Below, piece by piece: positions 10,908-55,736 of a stretch of DNA of 64,000 bases. How positions within the stretch are numbered: the stretch's first letter is position 1; the number at the start of each line of letters is the position of its first letter. The notes under the pieces were generated by a model. That model was not told the origin of the DNA and ran no database searches. It saw only the letters and a list, made by a program, of their open reading frames with translations. This stretch comes from Bacteroidia bacterium (lineage in GTDB: Bacteria > Bacteroidota > Bacteroidia > Chitinophagales > UBA2359). The position numbers and the translations under genes are program-made. The stretch is from contig JAUHXA010000030.1 of the NCBI GenBank assembly GCA_030427245.1, positions 1-64,000 on the forward strand, in the 5' to 3' direction.

Positions 10908-11558
10908 CTAGCGTTCCTGTTCAAATCTCCCCCTCCAATTCGGCTGCACCAACACCAATGTCCCCAAAGTCATCAACAACAAAGCCAAGATGATTAAACC
11001 CCATTCGGAGAGGGTGGGAATACTGGCTGCTCCTGAAGAATTAGGGGTAAGAGTAATGGATATTTCATAAACAGAACTCCCATTTATACCGTCACTATCT
11101 GCAACTCCCAAACCATATTGACCAGCAGTAAGACTTCCACCTCCAAACAAAGAAAAAATGTTTTGTGGAGCAGAAACGCTGGTTGAAGCGATGAAAGCGA
11201 GTGGTGTACCACTGTAAGCCCCTATGGCAGCACCTCCATTGCCACTTTCCGAGTAAGCAGAAAGTGAAACAGCAGTTACGGTAGTACCAGAAGGAACCAT
11301 GAACGAAAAGGAGTCTTTTCCAAGATCAGAGCCAGCAAAACCACTATTATTTCCAACCGTTCCTCTAATAATATTCACACCACTGACTAATGTAATATCT
11401 TGAAAATTTGTATTGCTAAAGAAAAAAAGAGTATTCGCTGGTAAATCTCCATCCACACTCTCATCCCAAACCACCGTTTGCGCCAAAGTAGGAGTCAGAC
11501 AAAGAAAAGAGAAAAAAAGTACGAGGGCAGAAAAAAAGAGGTTGTTTTTGTGTTTCAT
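10908..11558 (-). CDS. Secreted protein with IPTL-CTERM-like signal, intact tandem copy
   Basis: The 216-residue protein has a signal peptide (MKHKNNLFFSALVLFFSFLC, ending TPTLAQ), a Gly/Ser/Ala-rich mature domain with predicted beta strands (VVWDESVDGDLPAN, FSFMVPSGTTVTAVSLSAYS), and the C-terminal IPTLSEWGLIILALLLM segment plus an Arg-rich tail. No catalytic motif is visible; the domain looks like a small beta-sandwich found on surface proteins. The coding sequence of the mature part is almost identical to the copy at 11833-12414, with only a few substitutions near the 3' end. A common terminator lies at 10823-10875. Confidence 0.8.
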   Translation of the reverse strand: MKHKNNLFFSALVLFFSFLCLTPTLAQTVVWDESVDGDLPANTLFFFSNTNFQDITLVSGVNIIRGTVGNNSGFAGSDLGKDSFSFMVPSGTTVTAVSLSAYSESGNGGAAIGAYSGTPLAFIASTSVSAPQNIFSLFGGGSLTAGQYGLGVADSDGINGSSVYEISITLTPNSSGAASIPTLSEWGLIILALLLMTLGTLVLVQPNWRGRFEQER

Positions 11559-11832
11559 GATCCTGTTGTTTGAAATATTAAAGAAATAGTGGAAAATGTT
11601 GATCAGATTATGGGTGTTTATTCTTTAGTATCTTTTTTTTGAGGCTTGTGAACAGGGCAGGCATTTTTTTTTACTTTTTTTTTCGAAAGTGCTTATTTCA
11701 ATATTGATGATTAATGGTGGACAACCCACAAAAAAAGCCACCACCCATTCCGAGCAGCGGCTATATTTCGAGAGCATCTTTAATTTCAATATAAATTTTG
11801 GAGCAAAATCAGTGCGGAAAGTTCCTTTCCAT

Positions 11833-12481
11833 CTAGCATTCCTGTTCAAATATCCCCCTCCAATTCGGCTGCACCAACACCAATGTCCCCAAAGTCAACA
11901 ACAACAAAGCCAAGATGATTAAACCCCATTCGGAGAGGGTGGGAATACTGGCTGCTCCTGAAGAATTAGGGGTAAGAGTAATGGATATTTCATAAACAGA
12001 ACTCCCATTTATACCGTCACTATCTGCAACTCCCAAACCATATTGACCAGCAGTAAGACTTCCACCTCCAAACAAAGAAAAAATGTTTTGTGGAGCAGAA
12101 ACGCTGGTTGAAGCGATGAAAGCGAGTGGTGTACCACTGTAAGCCCCTATGGCAGCACCTCCATTGCCACTTTCCGAGTAAGCAGAAAGTGAAACAGCAG
12201 TTACGGTAGTACCAGAAGGAACCATGAACGAAAAGGAGTCTTTTCCAAGATCAGAGCCAGCAAAACCACTATTATTTCCAACCGTTCCTCTAATAATATT
12301 CACACCACTGACTAATGTAATATCTTGAAAATTTGTATTGCTAAAGAAAAAAAGAGTATTCGCTGGTAAATCTCCATCCACACTCTCATCCCAAACCACA
12401 GTTGTTTGAGCCAAAGCAGGAGTTAGGAAAAGAAAAGAACAGAAAGATAGTGTAAAAATGTTTCTGTAATATAGTTGTCAT
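11833..12481 (-). pseudogene. Second IPTL tandem copy, frameshifted in the signal peptide
   Basis: From 12414 down the frame encodes a mature domain essentially identical to the neighbouring copy, ending in the same IPTL segment. Upstream, the signal-peptide sequence is still present (FTLSFCSFLFLTPALAQ), but the only suitable ATG, at 12481, is out of frame by one base. Removing one T from the five-T run (12454-12458 on the plus strand as AAAAA) would join it as MTTILQKHFTLSFCSFLFLT. So the gene is either OFF through homopolymer slippage, recently disrupted, or affected by a base error. A TTG at 12414 would start after most of the signal and is a poor start. Confidence 0.7.
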
Positions 12482-12616
12482 GATTGAAAATGTTTAAGTG
12501 AAAAGAAAATAAATGACTTAGTTTGGTTTGAATAATCGGGTATATTGAAGGCAATGTAGGGTGTGTTTTTGTCAAAAAAAACCAATTTTGAGACATCCGA
12601 TTTTGCTTCCTTTTTT

Positions 12617-13045
12617 TTACTTTTTGGTGACACTCTTTGTGTCCTCTGCTTGATTTTTCTGCTCTTGTAGCTTCAATATCAAATACTTAGGCGTATAACC
12701 AAACCGTTTTCTAAAAATCAGTGCAAAGTGAGAAGGATTGACATAACCAAAAGAAAAAGCCAGTTCACTGGTCGTCGAATAGCTTCTTGCCTCTAATGTC
12801 CGATGTGCATATTGCAGTCGAAATTCATGGAGGTATTGCTTAGCAGTTTGTTGGGTATGCACCTTTATTTTTCGCTCCAATGTTTTTTTGCTGATTTGTA
12901 GGGTTTCCGCCAATTTCTCTACTGCCAATGAATGGTTTTTATCAACAATCTGTTGGACAATCACCTCTTGCAGTTGCTGCATAAAATTAGGTTCGATGTT
13001 CGATTGAAGAGAATCTTCATTAGAGGTAGTTTTTGGAGTTTTCAT
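12617..13045 (-). CDS. AraC-type helix-turn-helix regulator
   Basis: The 142-residue protein is essentially one AraC/XylS DNA-binding domain. The first helix-turn-helix is in SLAVEKLAETLQISKKTLER, the second in ELAFSFGYVNPSHFALIFRK, with the family end motif FGYTPKYL. The N-terminal 40 residues hold no ligand-binding domain, so it either acts as a stand-alone regulator or takes its signal elsewhere. It lies upstream of the IPTL tandem pair on the same strand (its 3' end faces their 5' end), so a regulatory link is possible but not shown. Confidence 0.88.
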   Translation of the reverse strand: MKTPKTTSNEDSLQSNIEPNFMQQLQEVIVQQIVDKNHSLAVEKLAETLQISKKTLERKIKVHTQQTAKQYLHEFRLQYAHRTLEARSYSTTSELAFSFGYVNPSHFALIFRKRFGYTPKYLILKLQEQKNQAEDTKSVTKK

Positions 13046-47194: not shown

Positions 47195-48169
47195 TCAAAA
47201 ATACCTTGGCGTAATAATCCTTCTATCACCACTCCCTCCAAAATCAAATCCAAGACCGATTTCATGTGAGCCATTGTTGAAGTCTGCCAAATCCGATAGG
47301 GTCAAATCATAAGAATACCCAATTCGCAGTCCACTCTTCAATTGAAAACCCAATAAGAAATCCAACGATTCAGGATCCATTTCTTCACTCAATCGAACCG
47401 AACTACCTACCCAAAACGCATCGCTAAACATCAAATTTACATTGAAGTCCACCTGTGTCGGCGCATTGATAGGCACCATTTTGACCAAAGTAGAAGGAAT
47501 AATTTTGAAGCGTTCGCTTAGTTCTAACACCACTCCTGCGGTGAAAAAATAGTGTCGGTATTGTTGTCCAACCAAACTGATGCTCGATTCACCACTTTTG
47601 AGGCGATTCGTCAGTAATTGAGGAATAGAAGCACCTGCATAAAAATATTCACTATGGTAGTACAATCCCACTCCAAAATTGGGCAGAAAACGACTCAAAT
47701 CATTTTGAAAAACAGGATCGTCTGTGCCTGGTGTTGCAGTTGTTTGTGCTTGACTCAAATCAGCACTGAATAGCGAACCACCTGCCTGCAATCCAATTCC
47801 CAACTTCCCATTTCCAATTTTGAGGTGGTAAGCATACGTTCCGAATACCCGCCAAGTATTGTGCAATCCAATGTCATCGTATTCAATAAAACCACCTACA
47901 CCCACTTGATCTCCATCACCCAATGCACCGTTGCCGCTCAGCGTAATCGAAGTCGGAGCGCCATCCAATCCCGCCCATTGTGTGCGATAAAAAGCTGAAA
48001 TATTGGCATTGCCCGAACTTCCCGCATACGCAGGATTCAACAACAAGCCATTGAACATGTACTGAGTATATCGGGCATCCTGCTGCGCCACCGCCTTTTC
48101 TCCCGCCAAAACAAAGAACAAAAAGAAGGCTGCTAAAAATATAGAGTGTTGGTAAAATTGCTTATTCAT
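47195..48169 (-). CDS. PorP/SprF family type IX secretion membrane protein
   Basis: An outer-membrane beta-barrel protein of 324 residues. The ATG at 48169 gives the signal MNKQFYQHSIFLAAFFLFFV. The body begins DARYTQYMFNGLLLNPAYAG, the family hallmark, and alternates strand segments (VGGFIEYDDIG, GVGLYYHSEYFYAGASIPQL) to the end IITPRYF. These proteins help move and anchor T9SS type B cargo and are usually encoded beside a large adhesin; here the giant protein immediately upstream is that partner. A seven-codon upstream frame extension is not used. Confidence 0.92.
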   Translation of the reverse strand: MNKQFYQHSIFLAAFFLFFVLAGEKAVAQQDARYTQYMFNGLLLNPAYAGSSGNANISAFYRTQWAGLDGAPTSITLSGNGALGDGDQVGVGGFIEYDDIGLHNTWRVFGTYAYHLKIGNGKLGIGLQAGGSLFSADLSQAQTTATPGTDDPVFQNDLSRFLPNFGVGLYYHSEYFYAGASIPQLLTNRLKSGESSISLVGQQYRHYFFTAGVVLELSERFKIIPSTLVKMVPINAPTQVDFNVNLMFSDAFWVGSSVRLSEEMDPESLDFLLGFQLKSGLRIGYSYDLTLSDLADFNNGSHEIGLGFDFGGSGDRRIITPRYF

Positions 48170-48313
48170 TGTGTTTATCTCTTTAGGCATCGGATGCCTT
48201 CAAGGTATCCGATACCTGATTTCCTAATTACATTAGTTTTTGAATGGTTGAATTGTTTTATGGCTGAACAGTTGCGTACTTGGTAGCAATACAACAACTT
48301 CACCCTCCTACCA

Positions 48314-51300
48314 TTATCTGCATATTTCAATAAACCCAGACCTTGGCTCCAATGCCACACCTTCCTCATCTTGCCCTGTCAAAATATAGAAGTACGTTCC
48401 ATCAGGTACATCCTCCTTGTTCTTTTGCCAAGTACCATCCCACGGGTCGTCCGAATCATTGTAGTTTTGCCTCCTGAAAATCTCATCGCCCCATCTGTTG
48501 AAGATAACCAATTCATTTTCAGGGAAGCAAGCACCCAAATTTGGAATCATCAATTCATCGTTCACTCCATCCTGATTTGGAGAAAAAGCATTGGGTATAA
48601 ATATTTCACAACTCGTATCTCCTTCTATCACTGTCACCACAACCATAGCTGTATCACACAATTCTGCAATACACACCACGTATTCAAAAGTATCCGTTCC
48701 CACAAAATCGGGTAGCGGCGTGTAAGTAATCGTCGTGTCCTTAATCCCATCTCCATTCACCCCCACAATGCCATTAGAAGGATTGGAGGCAATGGTGATA
48801 ATTATTGAATCCGTTGGAAAATCGCCAAACAAATCGTTGTCCAACACAGGAATGTCTATCGGTGTATCCATTTCGGTAGTAGTCGCATCATCTACCGCTA
48901 CAATCCCCAACTCCTCTCCTACTCCAATGATTACCAAAGCCGTATCCGTCAATCCATCGGGGTCTGCAATCACATATTCAAAAGTGTCAATCCCTACAAA
49001 ATCGGTATCTGGCGTGTAAGTCACCGTTCCATCCGCATTGATAATCGCTTCCCCATTAGAAGGAGCTGTTTCAATCGTCACGACTGCCAAAGAATCGCCA
49101 TCAATGTCAGAATCGTTGTCCAATACAGGAATCTCAATCGGCGTATTCACATCTGTATTCGCCAAATCATCGTTGGCGATTGGAGGATCATTCACTGGCA
49201 AAACGGTGATGTTCACCGTAATCGTGTCGCAAATACCCTCCGCCACATTGCAGATTCCCAACAAGAAATCATCGTTTCCATTGAAGTCTTGAGTGGGCGT
49301 ATACACAAAGCAGGAGTCACTCAAAATCGAAGCATCATTTATTAATACCGTTCCGTTTGAAGGCAAAACAAAAATCGTCATGCTGTCTATCGGGAAATTA
49401 ATCGTGTCAAGGAACTCTTCCACACATAAGGTCAAAGGCGTATCTTCGTCCGTTGTGTCTGCGATAATCGGGAAAGGTGGTTCTGCAATCGTAATCACCA
49501 CCAAAGCCGTATCGCACAATCCATCGGGATCACAAATCACATATTCTAAAGTATCCATTCCTTCAAAATCCTCATTAGGCGTGTAAACAATGCCTGTCCC
49601 ATCTTCGTTGATACTCGCAAAACCGTTTGAAGGCTGTAAACTGAAAGTTATAATCGCCAACTCATCTCCATCTGGGTCACTGTCATTGTCCAATATGGGG
49701 ATGTCAATCGGTGTATTCGGCGTTGTTGTCGCTTCATCATCTACTGCAATAGGCGGCTGATTTTCTATTTCTTCCACCACATTGACCACCACCAAAGCCG
49801 TATCACACAATCCTTCCGTATCACAAATCACATATTCAAAACTATCCGTTCCGATGAAATCCGTATTCGGTGTATAATTCACCGCACTTCCTTCAATTGT
49901 CACCGTACCGTTTGAAGGCAATTCGTTGATGTCGGTAATGGTCAAATCATCTCCATCAGGGTCGCTATCGTTTGCCAATACTTCTATGCTGATAGGTGTA
50001 TTGACCTCTGTTGTCGCTTCATCATCTACTGCAATAGGAGCTTGATTTTCTATTTCTTCCACCACATTGACCACTACTAAAGCCGTATCACACAATCCTT
50101 CTGTATCACAAATCACATATTCAAAACTATCCGTTCCGATGAAATCCGTATTCGGTGTATAATTCACCGCACTTCCTTCAATTGTCACCGTACCGTTTGA
50201 AGGCAATTCGTTGATGTCGGTAATGGTCAAGGTATCACCATCTGGGTCGCTATCGTTTGCCAAAACTTCAATGCTAATCGGTGTATTGACCTCCGTTGTC
50301 GCTTCATCATCCACTGCAATAGGCGCTTGATTGACATTCGGATCAACGACCGTTATCGTTACAGTTGCGGTATCGCATAGACCAACAGGATCGCAAATCA
50401 CATATTCAAAGCTGTCTATCCCGACAAAACCCTCGTTTGGAGTGTAGTTCACCGAACTGTTACCGATGATTTCTACCGTACCATTGGTCGGATTATTACT
50501 AATGTTCGTGACCGTAAGATTATCTCCATCAGGGTCACTATCGTTTGCCAATACGCCAATACCAATCAATTCGTTTATTTGAGTAATCACATTATCGTCC
50601 ACTGCAATAGGAGCTTGATTCCCTTCTTCGCTGACTATTATTACCACCAAACCAACATCACACAAGCCCTCTGAGTCACAAATAGTGTATTCAAAACTGT
50701 CGGTGCCAATAAAATCTGTATTGGGCAAATAATCTATCACACCATTATTAATCGTTGCAGTACCGTTAGAAGGTGCGGTATTGATGGAAGTGATGGTCAA
50801 ATCATCGCCCTCAGGGTCTACATCATTTGCTAGCACATTTATGCTTACCAATGTATTTGTTCCTGTGGTTGCATTGTCGTCTATCGCAATTGGAGGCTGA
50901 TTCCCACCAGGGTTTATCACCGTTACCACTACTTGTGCGGTGTCACAGAAGCCCAGTGGATCGCAAACCACATATTCAAAAGTGTCCGTTCCTACAAAAT
51001 TATTGTTGGGCGTGTAGTTGATAGAGCTGTTGTTGAAGCCCACTATTTCTGCTATACCGTTTGAAGGAGGACTGCTGATAGTAGTAATAGTCAAATCATC
51101 GCCATCAGGGTCGCTATCATTTGCCAATACACCAATGCCAATTAACAGATTGATTTGAGTTACAATTGCATCGTCAATTGCAACAGGCGGTTGATTGTCT
51201 CCTGCTTCAACCACTGTCACCGTCACCAAAGCCGTATCACACAAACCTTCTAGGTCACAGACCACATATTCAAAATTGTCTGTGCCAATAAAGTCTGTAT

Positions 51301-54300
51301 TCGGTGTGTAAATCACCAAACCATTGTCAATCGTGACTGTACCATTTGAAGGATTAGAACTGATTGTACTGATGGTCAAATTATCGCCATCGGGGTCGCT
51401 GTCGTTTGCCAAGACATCAATCGTTAAAGGAGTATTTGCAGCAACGGTTGCATTGTCGTCAATTGCAGTAGGCGGCTGATTTCCCCCCTCTCCTATCACT
51501 GTCACCGTTACCAAAGCTGTGTCACACAAGCCATCTGGGTCACAAACCACGTATTCAAAATTATCTGTTCCAACAAAATCGGTATTGGGCGTATAAGTTA
51601 TTAGTCCATTGTCAATCGTTGCCGTCCCATTTGAAGGAGCAGAGTTGATCGTATTGATGCTGAGATTGTCGCCATTGGCATCTACATCATTTGCCAATAC
51701 ATCTATACTGATTGGAGTATTTACATCTGTTGTTTCATTATCGTTCACCGCAATAGGAGGCGCATTTCCGCCGGGATTGATAACCGTGATGATTACCTGA
51801 GCCGTATCACACAAGCCGCCTGTATCACAGACTACATATTCGAGCGTGTCTGTACCAATGAAATTCGGATTCGGTGTATAATTGATAGCACTGTTGTTGA
51901 AGCCTACGATTACGGCTGTACCATTTGCAGGAGGGTTGCTGATGGCGGCAATGGTCAAATCATCTCCATCGGGGTCGCTGTCGTTTCCGAGTACTCCAAT
52001 GCCAATCAACTGGTTGATTTGGGTCACAATGGCATCGTCCACTGCAATTGGAGGATTGTTTACCCCCACATCCCCTACTGTTATTGTCACCGTTGCCGTA
52101 CTACATAGCACTGGCTCACCATCATCACAGATTTGATAGGTAAAAGAATCTGTACCCGTAAAATCTGTATTGGGGGTATAAGTAACTGCTTGTGTATCGG
52201 GATTAATCGTGACAGTTCCATTTGAAGGAGAGGTAGTAGCTGTCACACTTATATTGTCTCCATCAGGGTCGCTGTCGTTTGCTAAAACAAATATTTGCAA
52301 AAGCGTATTCGGCAAGGTGATTCCTTCATCGTCTACTGCAATAGGTGCTTGATTGACCAATTCGCCTACTGTAATGGTAACAATCGCCGTGTCACAAAGT
52401 GATTCGGAGCAGTTATTACAGGCAATATAGGTCAAAATCTCTTGCCCTGTTGCGCCTTCATTGGGGGTATAGCTCAAATCGCCATTGCTCGTTATTGCAG
52501 CTTCGCCCATCTGAGCCCCCCCTATTAAAGTTGCAGAAAGGGTATAGTCACATGTCTGTGCATCGTTTTCTAAAACATTCAAACTAAGTAGCTGACCGAC
52601 CATTGTTGCGCCAACATCGTCATTGGCCGTAGGTGCAGGACATTTCACTTCTACTGTCACTGTCAGGGTATCACATACACCCAGTTCATTACAGCCAATC
52701 ACTTCTACTTCGTCTATCCCTGCAAAACCACTCGGAGGTGTATATCCAAAACAGACCGCACTATTGATGCTAAGCGTTGACTCAAATACACTGCTCAATC
52801 CCGTAATCATGGCATCGCTTACATTGCAAAATTCCACACATATTTCGGTTGGCGTTGTTGCATTGTCGCAAACTTCTGCTACTTCCGTGCAGTCTTGTAT
52901 GCCATCACCAATCACTTCAATAGTAACCATCGCATCGTCACAGTTGCCATTCACATCACAGATCGTATAAGTGAAGGAATCAATCCCTGTAAAGTTGGTA
53001 TTGGGAACATATTGCAGTAAATCACCTTCTTGTGTAACAGTTCCATTTGCAGCTTGTCCAAAACTTTGCAAACTGAAATCATCTCCTTGCGGGTCAAAAT
53101 CATTGCCAAGAACATTCAGCAAGATGAAGGTATTTTGGATGGCTACTGCAAAATCATCTTCTGCTACAATGTCATCCCCCACATCTCCACAGGAAGTAGC
53201 GACTTCAATGTTGATAGTCGTTTGTGCACAATTCCCTTCCTCGTTACAGGCAAGAATCGTGGCAATATCAGTTCCTATAAAACCTGCCGGTGGGATGTAT
53301 TTGTAGCAGCCAACCTCGGTGGGAGAACCGATTAATTGTCCGCCTACTGCACTTGTTATTTCTATCACGTTCAAAGAACTGCCTTCTACTTCACAATATT
53401 CGGGACAGATGACCATAGGAATATCTACTTCAATACACTGCATCATCTCCAATTCGCAATCAATTGACATTCCTGTAACGGTAATGTAAACCGTAGCGGA
53501 GGAAGTTTGATTGCTGGCATCTGTAATCGAGTAAGTAAAACTGTCCACTCCTATAAAACCCGCATCGGGTGTATAAAGGACCACATTGTTTATCAACAAA
53601 GTAGTTCCGTTTGGAGAATCTTCTACATTGGTTACCAAAAGTGGCGGCTGTCCATTGTCATTTGCCAGCACTTCAATGATAATAGGTGTTGATTGAGTTG
53701 TAGTTACGTTATCTTCCACTGCCAAAGGACCACCAGGACAAGGCACGCTTACTGCAATTTTACCGATTGCACAACCCGATGGATTGGCATCGTCACAGAC
53801 AGTCACAGCGACTGTGTCAACTCCTTCGTAGCCTGGTAGAGGTGTATATCTAAAACAATCCTCATTGAGTATTGTGAAAGTTGCGCCTGTCTGAGTAGAG
53901 CCTTCTGTAATTGTGGTATTATCGCCTTCTGGTTCAAATATTTCAAGGCATACAGTTACAGGTGTTTGTGGGGCTGTGCAGGCATTTTTTGTTATGATTA
54001 CGGGGGGCTTATTATTAGTAGAGAACGTGGTAAGCTGTCCAAAATCTGCTGTTAAGAACTTTTCGTTTTCTGAAAGAGTAACGGTATAACTATTGGGAGT
54101 AGTCAAAGGTGCTACTAAGGTGCTTTCTACAACCGATACCGTATAAGTACCTGCTGACAAATCTTTGAAAAGATAATATCCATCGTGATTGCTTTCAGTT
54201 GTGGCGATTAAATTACCTGTATTGTCAAACAATTGAATGATAGTCTCGCCAATGCCTCCCTCTCCGCCTTCTAATAAGCCGTTGTTGTTGGCATCTGCCC

Positions 54301-54409
54301 AAACCCAATCACCGATAGTTGCACCGATTAAATAGTTATTACCCAATAAGAAAAAGAACAATAAAAAGCATACTGATTTTAGGGTATAGTGTGTAAAGCT
54401 TAATTTCAT
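48314..54409 (-). CDS. Giant tandem cadherin/Ig-like adhesin, T9SS type B cargo
   Basis: A 2031-residue secreted adhesin starting at the ATG at 54409. The signal (residues 1-29) ends at LIGA. Residues 30-115 form an SdrD B-like domain (IGDWVWADANNNGLLEGG). About fifteen Ig-like/cadherin-like modules of roughly 95 residues follow, each with the Ca-binding VLANDSDPDGD motif and GTDSFEYVICD end. The last 90 residues are the gliding-motility type sorting domain (FIPNAFSPNQDGVND ... IFNRWGDEIFR ... WDGTW). The PorP/SprF gene lies next downstream. It is expected to act in gliding or adhesion. Two modules, at about 49759-50328, are nearly identical. Confidence 0.92.
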   Translation of the reverse strand: MKLSFTHYTLKSVCFLLFFFLLGNNYLIGATIGDWVWADANNNGLLEGGEGGIGETIIQLFDNTGNLIATTESNHDGYYLFKDLSAGTYTVSVVESTLVAPLTTPNSYTVTLSENEKFLTADFGQLTTFSTNNKPPVIITKNACTAPQTPVTVCLEIFEPEGDNTTITEGSTQTGATFTILNEDCFRYTPLPGYEGVDTVAVTVCDDANPSGCAIGKIAVSVPCPGGPLAVEDNVTTTQSTPIIIEVLANDNGQPPLLVTNVEDSPNGTTLLINNVVLYTPDAGFIGVDSFTYSITDASNQTSSATVYITVTGMSIDCELEMMQCIEVDIPMVICPEYCEVEGSSLNVIEITSAVGGQLIGSPTEVGCYKYIPPAGFIGTDIATILACNEEGNCAQTTINIEVATSCGDVGDDIVAEDDFAVAIQNTFILLNVLGNDFDPQGDDFSLQSFGQAANGTVTQEGDLLQYVPNTNFTGIDSFTYTICDVNGNCDDAMVTIEVIGDGIQDCTEVAEVCDNATTPTEICVEFCNVSDAMITGLSSVFESTLSINSAVCFGYTPPSGFAGIDEVEVIGCNELGVCDTLTVTVEVKCPAPTANDDVGATMVGQLLSLNVLENDAQTCDYTLSATLIGGAQMGEAAITSNGDLSYTPNEGATGQEILTYIACNNCSESLCDTAIVTITVGELVNQAPIAVDDEGITLPNTLLQIFVLANDSDPDGDNISVTATTSPSNGTVTINPDTQAVTYTPNTDFTGTDSFTYQICDDGEPVLCSTATVTITVGDVGVNNPPIAVDDAIVTQINQLIGIGVLGNDSDPDGDDLTIAAISNPPANGTAVIVGFNNSAINYTPNPNFIGTDTLEYVVCDTGGLCDTAQVIITVINPGGNAPPIAVNDNETTDVNTPISIDVLANDVDANGDNLSINTINSAPSNGTATIDNGLITYTPNTDFVGTDNFEYVVCDPDGLCDTALVTVTVIGEGGNQPPTAIDDNATVAANTPLTIDVLANDSDPDGDNLTISTISSNPSNGTVTIDNGLVIYTPNTDFIGTDNFEYVVCDLEGLCDTALVTVTVVEAGDNQPPVAIDDAIVTQINLLIGIGVLANDSDPDGDDLTITTISSPPSNGIAEIVGFNNSSINYTPNNNFVGTDTFEYVVCDPLGFCDTAQVVVTVINPGGNQPPIAIDDNATTGTNTLVSINVLANDVDPEGDDLTITSINTAPSNGTATINNGVIDYLPNTDFIGTDSFEYTICDSEGLCDVGLVVIIVSEEGNQAPIAVDDNVITQINELIGIGVLANDSDPDGDNLTVTNISNNPTNGTVEIIGNSSVNYTPNEGFVGIDSFEYVICDPVGLCDTATVTITVVDPNVNQAPIAVDDEATTEVNTPISIEVLANDSDPDGDTLTITDINELPSNGTVTIEGSAVNYTPNTDFIGTDSFEYVICDTEGLCDTALVVVNVVEEIENQAPIAVDDEATTEVNTPISIEVLANDSDPDGDDLTITDINELPSNGTVTIEGSAVNYTPNTDFIGTDSFEYVICDTEGLCDTALVVVNVVEEIENQPPIAVDDEATTTPNTPIDIPILDNDSDPDGDELAIITFSLQPSNGFASINEDGTGIVYTPNEDFEGMDTLEYVICDPDGLCDTALVVITIAEPPFPIIADTTDEDTPLTLCVEEFLDTINFPIDSMTIFVLPSNGTVLINDASILSDSCFVYTPTQDFNGNDDFLLGICNVAEGICDTITVNITVLPVNDPPIANDDLANTDVNTPIEIPVLDNDSDIDGDSLAVVTIETAPSNGEAIINADGTVTYTPDTDFVGIDTFEYVIADPDGLTDTALVIIGVGEELGIVAVDDATTTEMDTPIDIPVLDNDLFGDFPTDSIIITIASNPSNGIVGVNGDGIKDTTITYTPLPDFVGTDTFEYVVCIAELCDTAMVVVTVIEGDTSCEIFIPNAFSPNQDGVNDELMIPNLGACFPENELVIFNRWGDEIFRRQNYNDSDDPWDGTWQKNKEDVPDGTYFYILTGQDEEGVALEPRSGFIEICR
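49759..50328 (-). repeat. Two near-identical 285-bp tandem modules in the giant adhesin
   Basis: Starts at 49759 and 50044, period exactly 285 bp (95 residues), next boundary at 50329. The two modules encode almost the same residues (NQAPIAVDDEATTEVNTP); other modules are far more diverged. Confidence 0.85.
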
Positions 54410-55038
54410 GGTCAATGGCTTGCTTTTAGATGATATTACATACTTTATTTGTTTTGAATTTGAATATGGGGTTGATAACTTAAAGATAGAATCAAGAAAT
54501 AGTACTACAATACCTTGGTTATAAAAACATTGTAAGCTTTTTTCGTAAAACTATTTTTGTCTAATCACTTAATTAAGTGAAACAAATGTTGGGTGGGCTT
54601 CGTATTCGTATGTGGGGGGGAATGTTTCAGAAGTTGTTCTGAAATCATCTTCATTCCCTCCATAATCACGCCTAAATGGTTCATTCATCAAAAGCTTGCC
54701 TATACTTTACACCTTTTCTTCGTACTTATTATTTGATAAACAATACAAACTATCTTGGTTTTTTATAAGAAAAACAATTTAGTTTTTTATCTGCTATTTG
54801 GCACAATTATTGAGTATTTTACAATCAAATGACAAAATCATTTACCGCAGTATGTGATTAGCAAAACCTAAAGAATATTGAAAAAGTATATTTGCTAAAT
54901 CATACACTCACTAATGTTTGTCGGTTTGATTCGGCAAATTTAAATAATTGTCATGAAAATGTAAAATTATTCTCATGAATAATGTTACATTTGCAGCATG
55001 ACTTGACTAGATAGTAAAATTGTTAACCAGAGTAAGCA
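54410..55038. other. Divergent 600-bp AT-rich gap
   Basis: It should hold promoters for the giant adhesin (left) and the transposase-like gene (right). The only clear structure is the palindrome at 54958-54991. A run of G (GGGGGGG at about 54615) stands out in an otherwise AT-rich region. Confidence 0.5.
54958..54991 (+). promoter_or_regulatory. Operator-like palindrome overlapping the -7 box
   Basis: AATGTAAAATTATTC (54958-54972) pairs with GAATAATGTTACATT (54977-54991), one mismatch, spacer TCAT. Its right arm overlaps the -7 box TACATTTGC (54986-54994), 45 bases before the ATG at 55039. A regulator bound here would block transcription. Confidence 0.5.
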
Positions 55039-55638
55039 ATGAAAATGAATGGTTTAAGTAAATACTACATTAAAAAGATTATTAATTGTTTTGCAGACGA
55101 AATGACAGCAACTGCTACTTCACGAAGGTTGAAGATTAATCGGAATACTGTAAATAAATATTTCAAGAAAATTCGATTAGCCGTTGCAGATTATCAAGAA
55201 CTGCGTGGTAGTAATGTTGTTTTAAATGCGACACGTAGCAACGCCGCCTATTTCAGTTGGTACAAGAATAGGGGCATCTGTTTTGAGCCAGAGGACACCT
55301 CTGCTTTCCAGCTCATTGAACGAGAGGACAAAGTTTTCGTGAATCCTAATTTGGCGGAAGTATTGGCATCTACCAAAGAAGTCGTCACAATAGAGTCTGC
55401 TGAAGACACAGAAAATGGTCATACCCTGACAGAAGACGAAAAAGATCAGATTGAATCTGCTCTTTCTGATACGGCAAAAGATTTTCACCAGTATGCCAGA
55501 GAGAAATTGGCAAAATTTTATGGTGTGAAATCTGACCATATTTATCTCTACTTAAAAGAGTTAGAGTTTCGTTTTAACAATCAAGATAAGGATACCTCCA
55601 AGATTATTTGGAAGATATTGCCGCATCACAGTCGTTGA
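55039..55638 (+). CDS. Transposase-derived protein, IS1595/IS1016-like, no visible DDE core
   Basis: A 199-residue protein whose two ends match an IS1595/IS1016-group transposase as I know that family. The N terminus has a helix-turn-helix like LSKYYIKKIINCFADEMTA and RLKINRNTVNKYFKKIRLAV. The C terminus (REKLAKFYGVKSDHIYLYLK, ELEFRFNN) resembles the conserved transposase tail. The middle (about 65-145) keeps a strand like FQLIEREDKVFVNPN but shows no DGE/D-E-S-like catalytic acids. The start is the ATG at 55039 with a -7 box before it. It may be a domesticated DNA-binding protein, or an inactive remnant. No inverted-repeat element ends were recognised beyond the operator-like palindrome. Confidence 0.65.
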   Translation: MKMNGLSKYYIKKIINCFADEMTATATSRRLKINRNTVNKYFKKIRLAVADYQELRGSNVVLNATRSNAAYFSWYKNRGICFEPEDTSAFQLIEREDKVFVNPNLAEVLASTKEVVTIESAEDTENGHTLTEDEKDQIESALSDTAKDFHQYAREKLAKFYGVKSDHIYLYLKELEFRFNNQDKDTSKIIWKILPHHSR

Positions 55639-55689
55639 GGAACTTCAAATTCAACGCTCAAACGCAAATTCAATTTTTAAAACAAAAAA

Positions 55690-55713
55690 GGCAGCGAAAA
55701 ATTTTTCGCTGCC
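55690..55713. terminator. Bidirectional terminator
   Basis: GGCAGCGAAAAA pairs perfectly with TTTTTCGCTGCC with no loop and A/T runs on both flanks, between convergent genes. Confidence 0.8.
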
Positions 55714-55736
55714 TTTTTTTATTGATTTGAAGTTTC

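Follow-up and report, generated by a model that had tools for sequence, protein, structure and literature searches.

The gene at positions 55039 to 55638 of the window (the whole stretch of 64,000 nucleotides of DNA that was analysed) descends, as its homology shows, from a transposase of the IS1016 group within the IS1595 family. It belongs to a small protein family, here called family F (the window protein plus 10 homologues, 11 proteins in total), whose members have lost the catalytic acids and have been retained vertically. The domestication of the transposase gene is well supported, and we consider it fairly likely that the present-day protein has no nuclease activity and acts as a regulator that binds specific DNA sites. 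A sequence-only reading of this DNA had already suggested a domesticated DNA-binding regulator. The domestication has found support, whereas the regulatory role is a prediction from the retained helix-turn-helix (HTH) and the conserved elements upstream of the genes.

Homology and loss of the catalytic triad

The open reading frame is intact from ATG to TGA. The only sound profile match of the encoded protein was to NCBIfam NF033547 (IS1595 transposase), in two stretches with 33.3 bits and an E-value of 4.3e-8, a score below the curated cut-off of 75. The Pfam profile DDE_Tnp_IS1595 matched only the tail, residues 139-180, with 17.7 bits (E 0.0038), which falls below its cut-off of 27. Neither Pfam nor NCBIfam contained a better match to an unrelated family. 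The features of descent in family F are the HTH start, a C-terminal tail of the KECEFRFN type and the lack of an N-terminal zinc finger, a lack that PMC8101967 also describes for the IS1016 group.

In an alignment of 64 rows the acid triad was complete in 13 of the 16 transposase-like rows and in none of the 11 members of family F, where none of the three columns holds a conserved acid. The first column holds Asp in L008 and L009, the second Asp in the window protein, and the third Glu in L007 and Lys in the window protein; the middle of this alignment is uncertain, the third acid position of the window protein being the best aligned. The motif DESYFG...YTD...NGIENFW, which PMC12561309 gives as the catalytic motif of the IS1016 group, was not found in family F.

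The coding region is composed as follows.

55039 to 55638, forward strand: gene for the 199-aa DDE-less protein of IS1595/IS1016 origin, a member of subfamily A in family F
55060 to 55176, forward strand: N-terminal HTH, residues 8-46, with recognition helix RNTVNKY (AlphaFold2 model, invariant residues)
55243 to 55347, forward strand: beta strands, residues 69-103, a putative remnant of the RNase-H-like core (AlphaFold2 model, alignment)
55357 to 55428, forward strand: low-confidence variable linker, residues 107-130, in the place of the remaining catalytic core (pLDDT <50, length varies)
55477 to 55581, forward strand: conserved C-terminal tail, residues 147-181, which matches that of IS1595 transposases (NCBIfam match, alignment)

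The AlphaFold2 model of the window protein was built from 11 sequences and has a pLDDT of 74. In it the HTH is followed by four beta strands, a disordered segment (residues 107-130) and C-terminal helices. The strands at residues 69-103 may correspond to the beginning of the RNase-H-like core, with the disordered loop replacing the rest. A comparison of the model by VIA-align returned mostly HTH domains of transposases and regulators (Z up to 5.9), and a Foldseek search with either model found nothing at E <= 0.001. A VIA-align match to retroviral intasomes over residues 63-184 (Z 4.3) was too weak to be used.

These results agree with much of the sequence-only reading, which had described an intact frame, two preserved transposase ends and a short middle without DDE acids, and had proposed a profile search and an inspection of the acid positions as checks. 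Its term 'catalytic-core-less' is right about the acids but slightly too strong, considering that the model keeps putative first strands of the core. The structure prediction that it proposed recovered the HTH and these partial strands, whereas the Foldseek search was null and all structural Z-scores stayed below 8.

Two old subfamilies under purifying selection

The 10 homologues (35-52% identity) come from six genomes, out of 19 others that belong to this GTDB family. All 11 frames are intact (189-232 aa), and they divide into subfamily A (the window, G001, G002, G006, G016 and G018; support 97/97) and subfamily B (G001, G002, G011, G016 and G018; support 99/79), two sets of old paralogues that arose by an ancient duplication. 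Nearly all invariant residues lie within the HTH and the C-terminal tail, the middle being variable in both length and sequence, and the residues of the recognition helix are invariant or nearly so in all 11 proteins. The dN/dS (NG86) was 0.069 for L008/L009 and 0.173 for L020/L021, the two pairs for which it was measurable, all other comparisons, including those with the window gene, being saturated at synonymous sites. Over the first 55 codons of these pairs dN was only 0 to 0.008. Purifying selection and conservation in relatives, to which the sequence-only reading had pointed as tests of its proposal, are thus both observed.

A search of 396 genomes across the order found family F confined to this GTDB family. 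A profile scan of genome contigs yielded 79 loci, namely 10 F genes and 69 full or partial matches to distant IS1595-like proteins, and outside the GTDB family such more distant proteins were the only matches. A scan of genome contigs with the single protein gave no homologue in 65 stretches. Searches of phages and viral contigs gave no match; the plasmid search returned 28 records, and of the ten listed (25.6-28.1% identity) eight are annotated as IS1595 transposase.

In an rpoB tree, covering the 16 of the 20 family genomes with a hit, all six gene-bearing genomes that have an rpoB hit fall within one half of eight rows (100/100), which argues that the gene is old. The same half contains G005 and G007, in which no F gene was found, an absence that is not certain at a completeness of 91% and 75%, respectively. 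A strict clade of the six gene-bearing genomes was rejected on this tree (p 0.02), in line with one old gain followed by loss or missing data.

Immobility and a relic of the transposon end

In the window genome the F gene is present in a single copy without any other IS1595 match, and the full-length terminal repeat pattern has no occurrence in the seven gene-bearing genomes. We therefore consider the gene not to be mobile. Moreover, the family-profile search of the 20 genomes of the family, whether or not they have an F gene, turned up no IS1016-like transposase and no intact IS1595 gene. One trace of the former element lies in front of the gene.

55002 to 55010, forward strand: CTTGACTAG, remnant of the left terminal inverted repeat that has lost the outer GGG

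The terminal repeats of intact relatives are perfect and have the core GACTAG (AGGCTCTTGACTAGCA in L048, GGGTCATGACTAGAATA in L055), the multi-copy elements in G658 have the repeats GGGGCTTGACTATCA and GGCTTGACTAGCA, and the repeat published for the IS1016 group is GGGGCTGTACTAGA (PMC12561309). The repeat starts 24 to 38 bases 5' of the open frame in intact elements, and CTTGACTAG starts 37 bases before the ATG of the window gene. The exact core CTTGACTA is found upstream of three of the four non-redundant subfamily A genes (L001, L007 and L008, in L007 at -212), whereas 1000 shuffles gave 0.02 on average and never more than 1. L010 bears CTTGATTA instead, and L006 (G002, subfamily A) fell outside this test, its contig ending 20 bases upstream. 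The core precedes none of the four non-redundant subfamily B genes. On the 3' side it was absent from all 11 F genes, allowing one mismatch within 350 bases (fewer at contig ends). Terminal inverted repeats at both ends were thus not found: only the left core is left and the right repeat is gone, so that no right end could be defined from which to read the 8-bp target duplication of the IS1016 group. Few or single copies, vertical inheritance, purifying selection and the lack of mobility, the features by which a domesticated transposase is recognized, are all displayed by family F.

Genomic neighbourhood

The gene is flanked by a divergent giant gene on one side and a terminator-like element on the other.

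47195 to 48190, reverse strand: PorP/SprF-type membrane protein of type IX secretion, beyond the giant gene
48314 to 54415, reverse strand: divergent neighbour, a 2033-aa protein of Big_9/cadherin-like repeats with a CHU_C type IX secretion signal
55684 to 55719, forward strand: terminator-like stem-loop downstream of the F gene

The giant neighbour contains 17 Big_9 stretches. In four of the five subfamily A genomes where the gene upstream could be read, the F gene is accompanied by a divergent giant Big_9 gene; the fifth, G006, differs, and in G002 the contig ends at that point. The CHU_C signal was confirmed on the giants of both genomes scanned for it (G000 and G018), and the genome search gave Big_9 matches at the F loci of G001 and G016. 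The N-termini of the giants align only within one genus and not between genera, so orthology of these neighbours is unsupported and they are better described as the same kind of gene. Two terminator-like stem-loops were found in the region (0.8 expected), and the window contains no RNA families or tRNAs.

The F-box and the promoter region

The upstream region of the window gene contains four further elements.

54799 to 54812, forward strand: TGGCACAATTATTG, -24/-12 element of sigma-54-like type that subfamily A genes have conserved
54949 to 54966, forward strand: F-box TGTCATGAAAATGTAAAA, conserved upstream element and candidate binding site
54954 to 54995, no strand assigned: 19-bp inverted repeat, candidate dimeric operator (89% complementary, 4-bp gap)
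54986 to 54993, forward strand: TACATTTG, -7-like promoter box that could be due to chance

A motif sampler, applied to 350 upstream bases, found the motif GTCAYRRAAAARTA in the same orientation in front of all eight non-redundant F genes (8 of the 11, L009 and L021 being excluded as near-copies and L006 for missing sequence). Its score of 98.1 was reached by none of 60 shuffles, the best of which scored 83.2. With the window gene held out of the training, the site at 54950 was still the best in its upstream region, a result equalled by one of 500 shuffles. The site is poor in L007, the F gene of G006 has a poor F-box at best, and subfamily A alone yielded no motif better than the shuffles at a width of 14 or 18, and one only marginally better at 22. 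The F-box TGTCAYRRAAWDGTAAAA precedes genes of both subfamilies.

When at most one mismatch was allowed, TGTCAYRRAAWDGTAAAA had 56 sites in the seven gene-bearing genomes versus 14 for the reversed control pattern, and 28 versus 21 in the 13 relatives without the gene. Perfect sites numbered 21 in the former and two in the latter; six of the 21 lie at F genes, which is so by construction because the pattern was drawn from those upstream regions. Away from F genes, and counting one site per orthologue after a collapse done by hand, the perfect F-boxes amounted to 10 versus 2 (p 0.0009). G005, which belongs to the same clade but has no detected F gene, has two perfect F-boxes, and since the presence of the gene follows the clade, the F-box may be an element of the clade or the site of another regulator and not that of the F protein itself. 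Among the distinct sites in gene-bearing genomes 49 of 54 are intergenic, a position towards which an A+T-rich motif would lean anyway. Genes for proteins with a signal peptide were not significantly enriched among the candidate F-box targets (13/26 versus 47/136, p 0.18). In eight site pairs between G018 and G016, 140 of 144 bases were identical within the sites and 1238 of 1600 in the flanks, a comparison biased by the selection of the pairs by pattern and therefore a lead only.

The inverted repeat, which one of 500 shuffles matched in quality, overlaps both the F-box and the -7-like box and is found at the window locus only. As to the promoter, the sequence-only reading had given the gene its own -7 box. 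TACATTTG is indeed present, but it makes weak evidence for a promoter because TANNTTTG occurs three times on the forward strand of the same 623-base intergenic region, and no -33 box was seen at the usual spacing. Further upstream, the pattern TGGCAY-N5-TTG, which we take to be sigma-54-like, occurs in all four non-redundant upstream regions of subfamily A, each with a copy at -222 to -242. It was spotted by eye before being compared with 1000 shuffles, which had a mean of 0.03 and a maximum of one of four.

Some F-boxes elsewhere have noteworthy surroundings. One with a single mismatch lies at window positions 12615-12632, in a region where two nearly identical tandem genes with an IPTL-type C-terminal segment (10908-12414, reverse strand) stand beside an AraC-like ORF (12617-13045). 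A perfect F-box in contig C47 of G000 (L223) precedes a gene with an IPTL-CTERM match. At L213 (contig C1 of G001) two perfect F-boxes, 93 bases apart and perhaps plasmid repeats, sit between a ParA-like ORF and an ORF resembling a replication initiator.

Proposed mechanism and alternative explanations

We propose that an IS1016-group transposase was taken over by one lineage of Chitinophagales-like bacteria. The F protein would bind DNA via its HTH and, lacking catalysis, would work by occupancy, probably as a dimer or oligomer on its own upstream DNA. Candidate targets are the F-box and, in subfamily A, also what is left of the inner portion of the old transposon end. In this way it could control its own expression and perhaps also the divergent gene for the giant surface protein, together with a few other promoters. 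The relic end lies approximately at the transcription start expected from the -7-like box, which makes simple autorepression the cheapest hypothesis. A more far-reaching scenario, which we put forward tentatively, is that the IS pair of transposase and end became a regulator and its operator in the chromosome. The core would have collapsed to a flexible linker and the outer bases of the end would have eroded, while the inner, protein-binding half was kept; the regulator would then have duplicated and gained F-boxes, and at least one further, independent domestication would have occurred in the same order.

The protein might instead be a structural or accessory DNA-binding protein of the nucleoid, partition or repair type, the upstream elements belonging to other regulators. 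Such a role is in line with the confounding of F-box enrichment with clade and with the sigma-54-like elements of subfamily A, which suggest other upstream factors. Nevertheless, genes of both subfamilies are preceded by the same element and its sites are mostly intergenic (with the A+T-related leaning mentioned above), and we regard this role as rather unlikely. Less likely still is the possibility that the dead transposase has been retained to inhibit invading IS1016-like elements by occupying their ends. The end core preserved beside the gene and the closeness of the HTH to that of intact transposases would suit an inhibitor, but with neither an IS1016-like transposase in the 20 genomes (family-profile search) nor a full terminal repeat in the seven gene-bearing ones, nothing to inhibit is visible.

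The loss of the acids and of the right end, together with the variable middle, is also what an ordinary decaying IS pseudogene with a frame open by chance would display. Decay is hard to reconcile with intact homologues in several genera, a dN/dS of 0.07-0.17, an invariant HTH and tail and two old paralogues, and on the grounds of the conservation across genera and the dN/dS we reject it as highly improbable. Equally little credence, or slightly less, can be given to the idea that the protein is still an active recombinase whose catalytic site has changed. The Glu at the third-acid column of L007 would fit it, yet no acid is conserved in the three columns, half of the core is replaced by a disordered loop, the gene is single-copy and the end relic is on one side only. 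We retain the regulator as the preferred reading.

Relation to known systems

Eukaryotes offer well-known examples of DDE transposases that became DNA-binding proteins, whereas to our knowledge few domestications of bacterial DDE transposases have been described. TldR, for its part, descends from the nuclease TnpB. No domesticated bacterial IS1595 or IS1016 protein was found in the literature searched.

The closest relation is to the IS1016 group itself (e.g. ISApl4, PMC12561309), with which family F shares the HTH start, the KECEFRFN-type tail and the left-end core ...ACTAG, and from which it differs by the missing triad, the replaced middle, the missing right repeat, the single copy and the vertical retention. 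TnpA-REP (RAYT), which PMC8266576 presents as the first domesticated transposase of prokaryotes, is likewise a bacterial chromosomal gene derived from an IS transposase; however, it is an HuH enzyme that still processes REP DNA, whereas F is a DDE-type relic without triad. TldR is a transposon-related RNA-guided regulator (PMC13418256). It is comparable in being a transposon-encoded nuclease turned bacterial regulator, a role that is predicted for F, but F proteins carry an HTH, and no RNA partner is apparent for them. The Merlin-related proteins with altered DDE (PMC8101967) belong to the same transposase superfamily and the transposase-derived transcription factors FHY3/FAR1 followed the same evolutionary route, but both are eukaryotic.

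Family F would offer a stepwise record, in living bacteria, of the passage from an enzyme and a transposon end to a regulator and an operator. Genes of this kind are probably labelled 'IS1595 transposase' or 'hypothetical', and the phenomenon is thus easily missed.

Other DDE-less IS1595-like proteins

The order search revealed another group of DDE-less IS1595-like proteins, family C (213-239 aa), in 29 genomes of family f20 (loci L114-L136 and L157-L186). With its own profile it was found at full length in 30 of the 195 f20 genomes searched. None of its 33 rows has the DDE triad, and the dN/dS of measurable pairs was 0.02 to 0.16. Nine of the 14 regions that were read have it after a set of housekeeping genes, which is largely present each time (RadC, Prs, ribosomal L25, peptidyl-tRNA hydrolase, FAA hydrolase, E1 dehydrogenase); no common upstream motif was coherent across its genera. 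Like F, family C is a DDE-less, single-copy, conserved IS1595-like gene of the same order; unlike F, it has a fuller core, lies on the other side of the tree and has a mostly housekeeping neighbourhood. The tree separates the two, and a clade of F and C was rejected (AU p 0.010; p = 0.029 and 0.043 with other DDE-less rows added), although its long branches make their independence less than certain. Judged by this tree, the families F and C are probably two domestications.

Two DDE-less IS1595-like proteins of 224 aa on a separate branch (L187 and L188, in G784 and G761 of f58, another family of the class) possibly represent a third domestication. Isolated DDE-less IS1595-like frames occur at L046:859-1485 (a Burkholderiales MAG) and L192:1183-2028 (G531). 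Finally, an IS1016-like transposase at L189:1486-2202 (G776) has kept the first two acids, with Lys in place of the third Glu.
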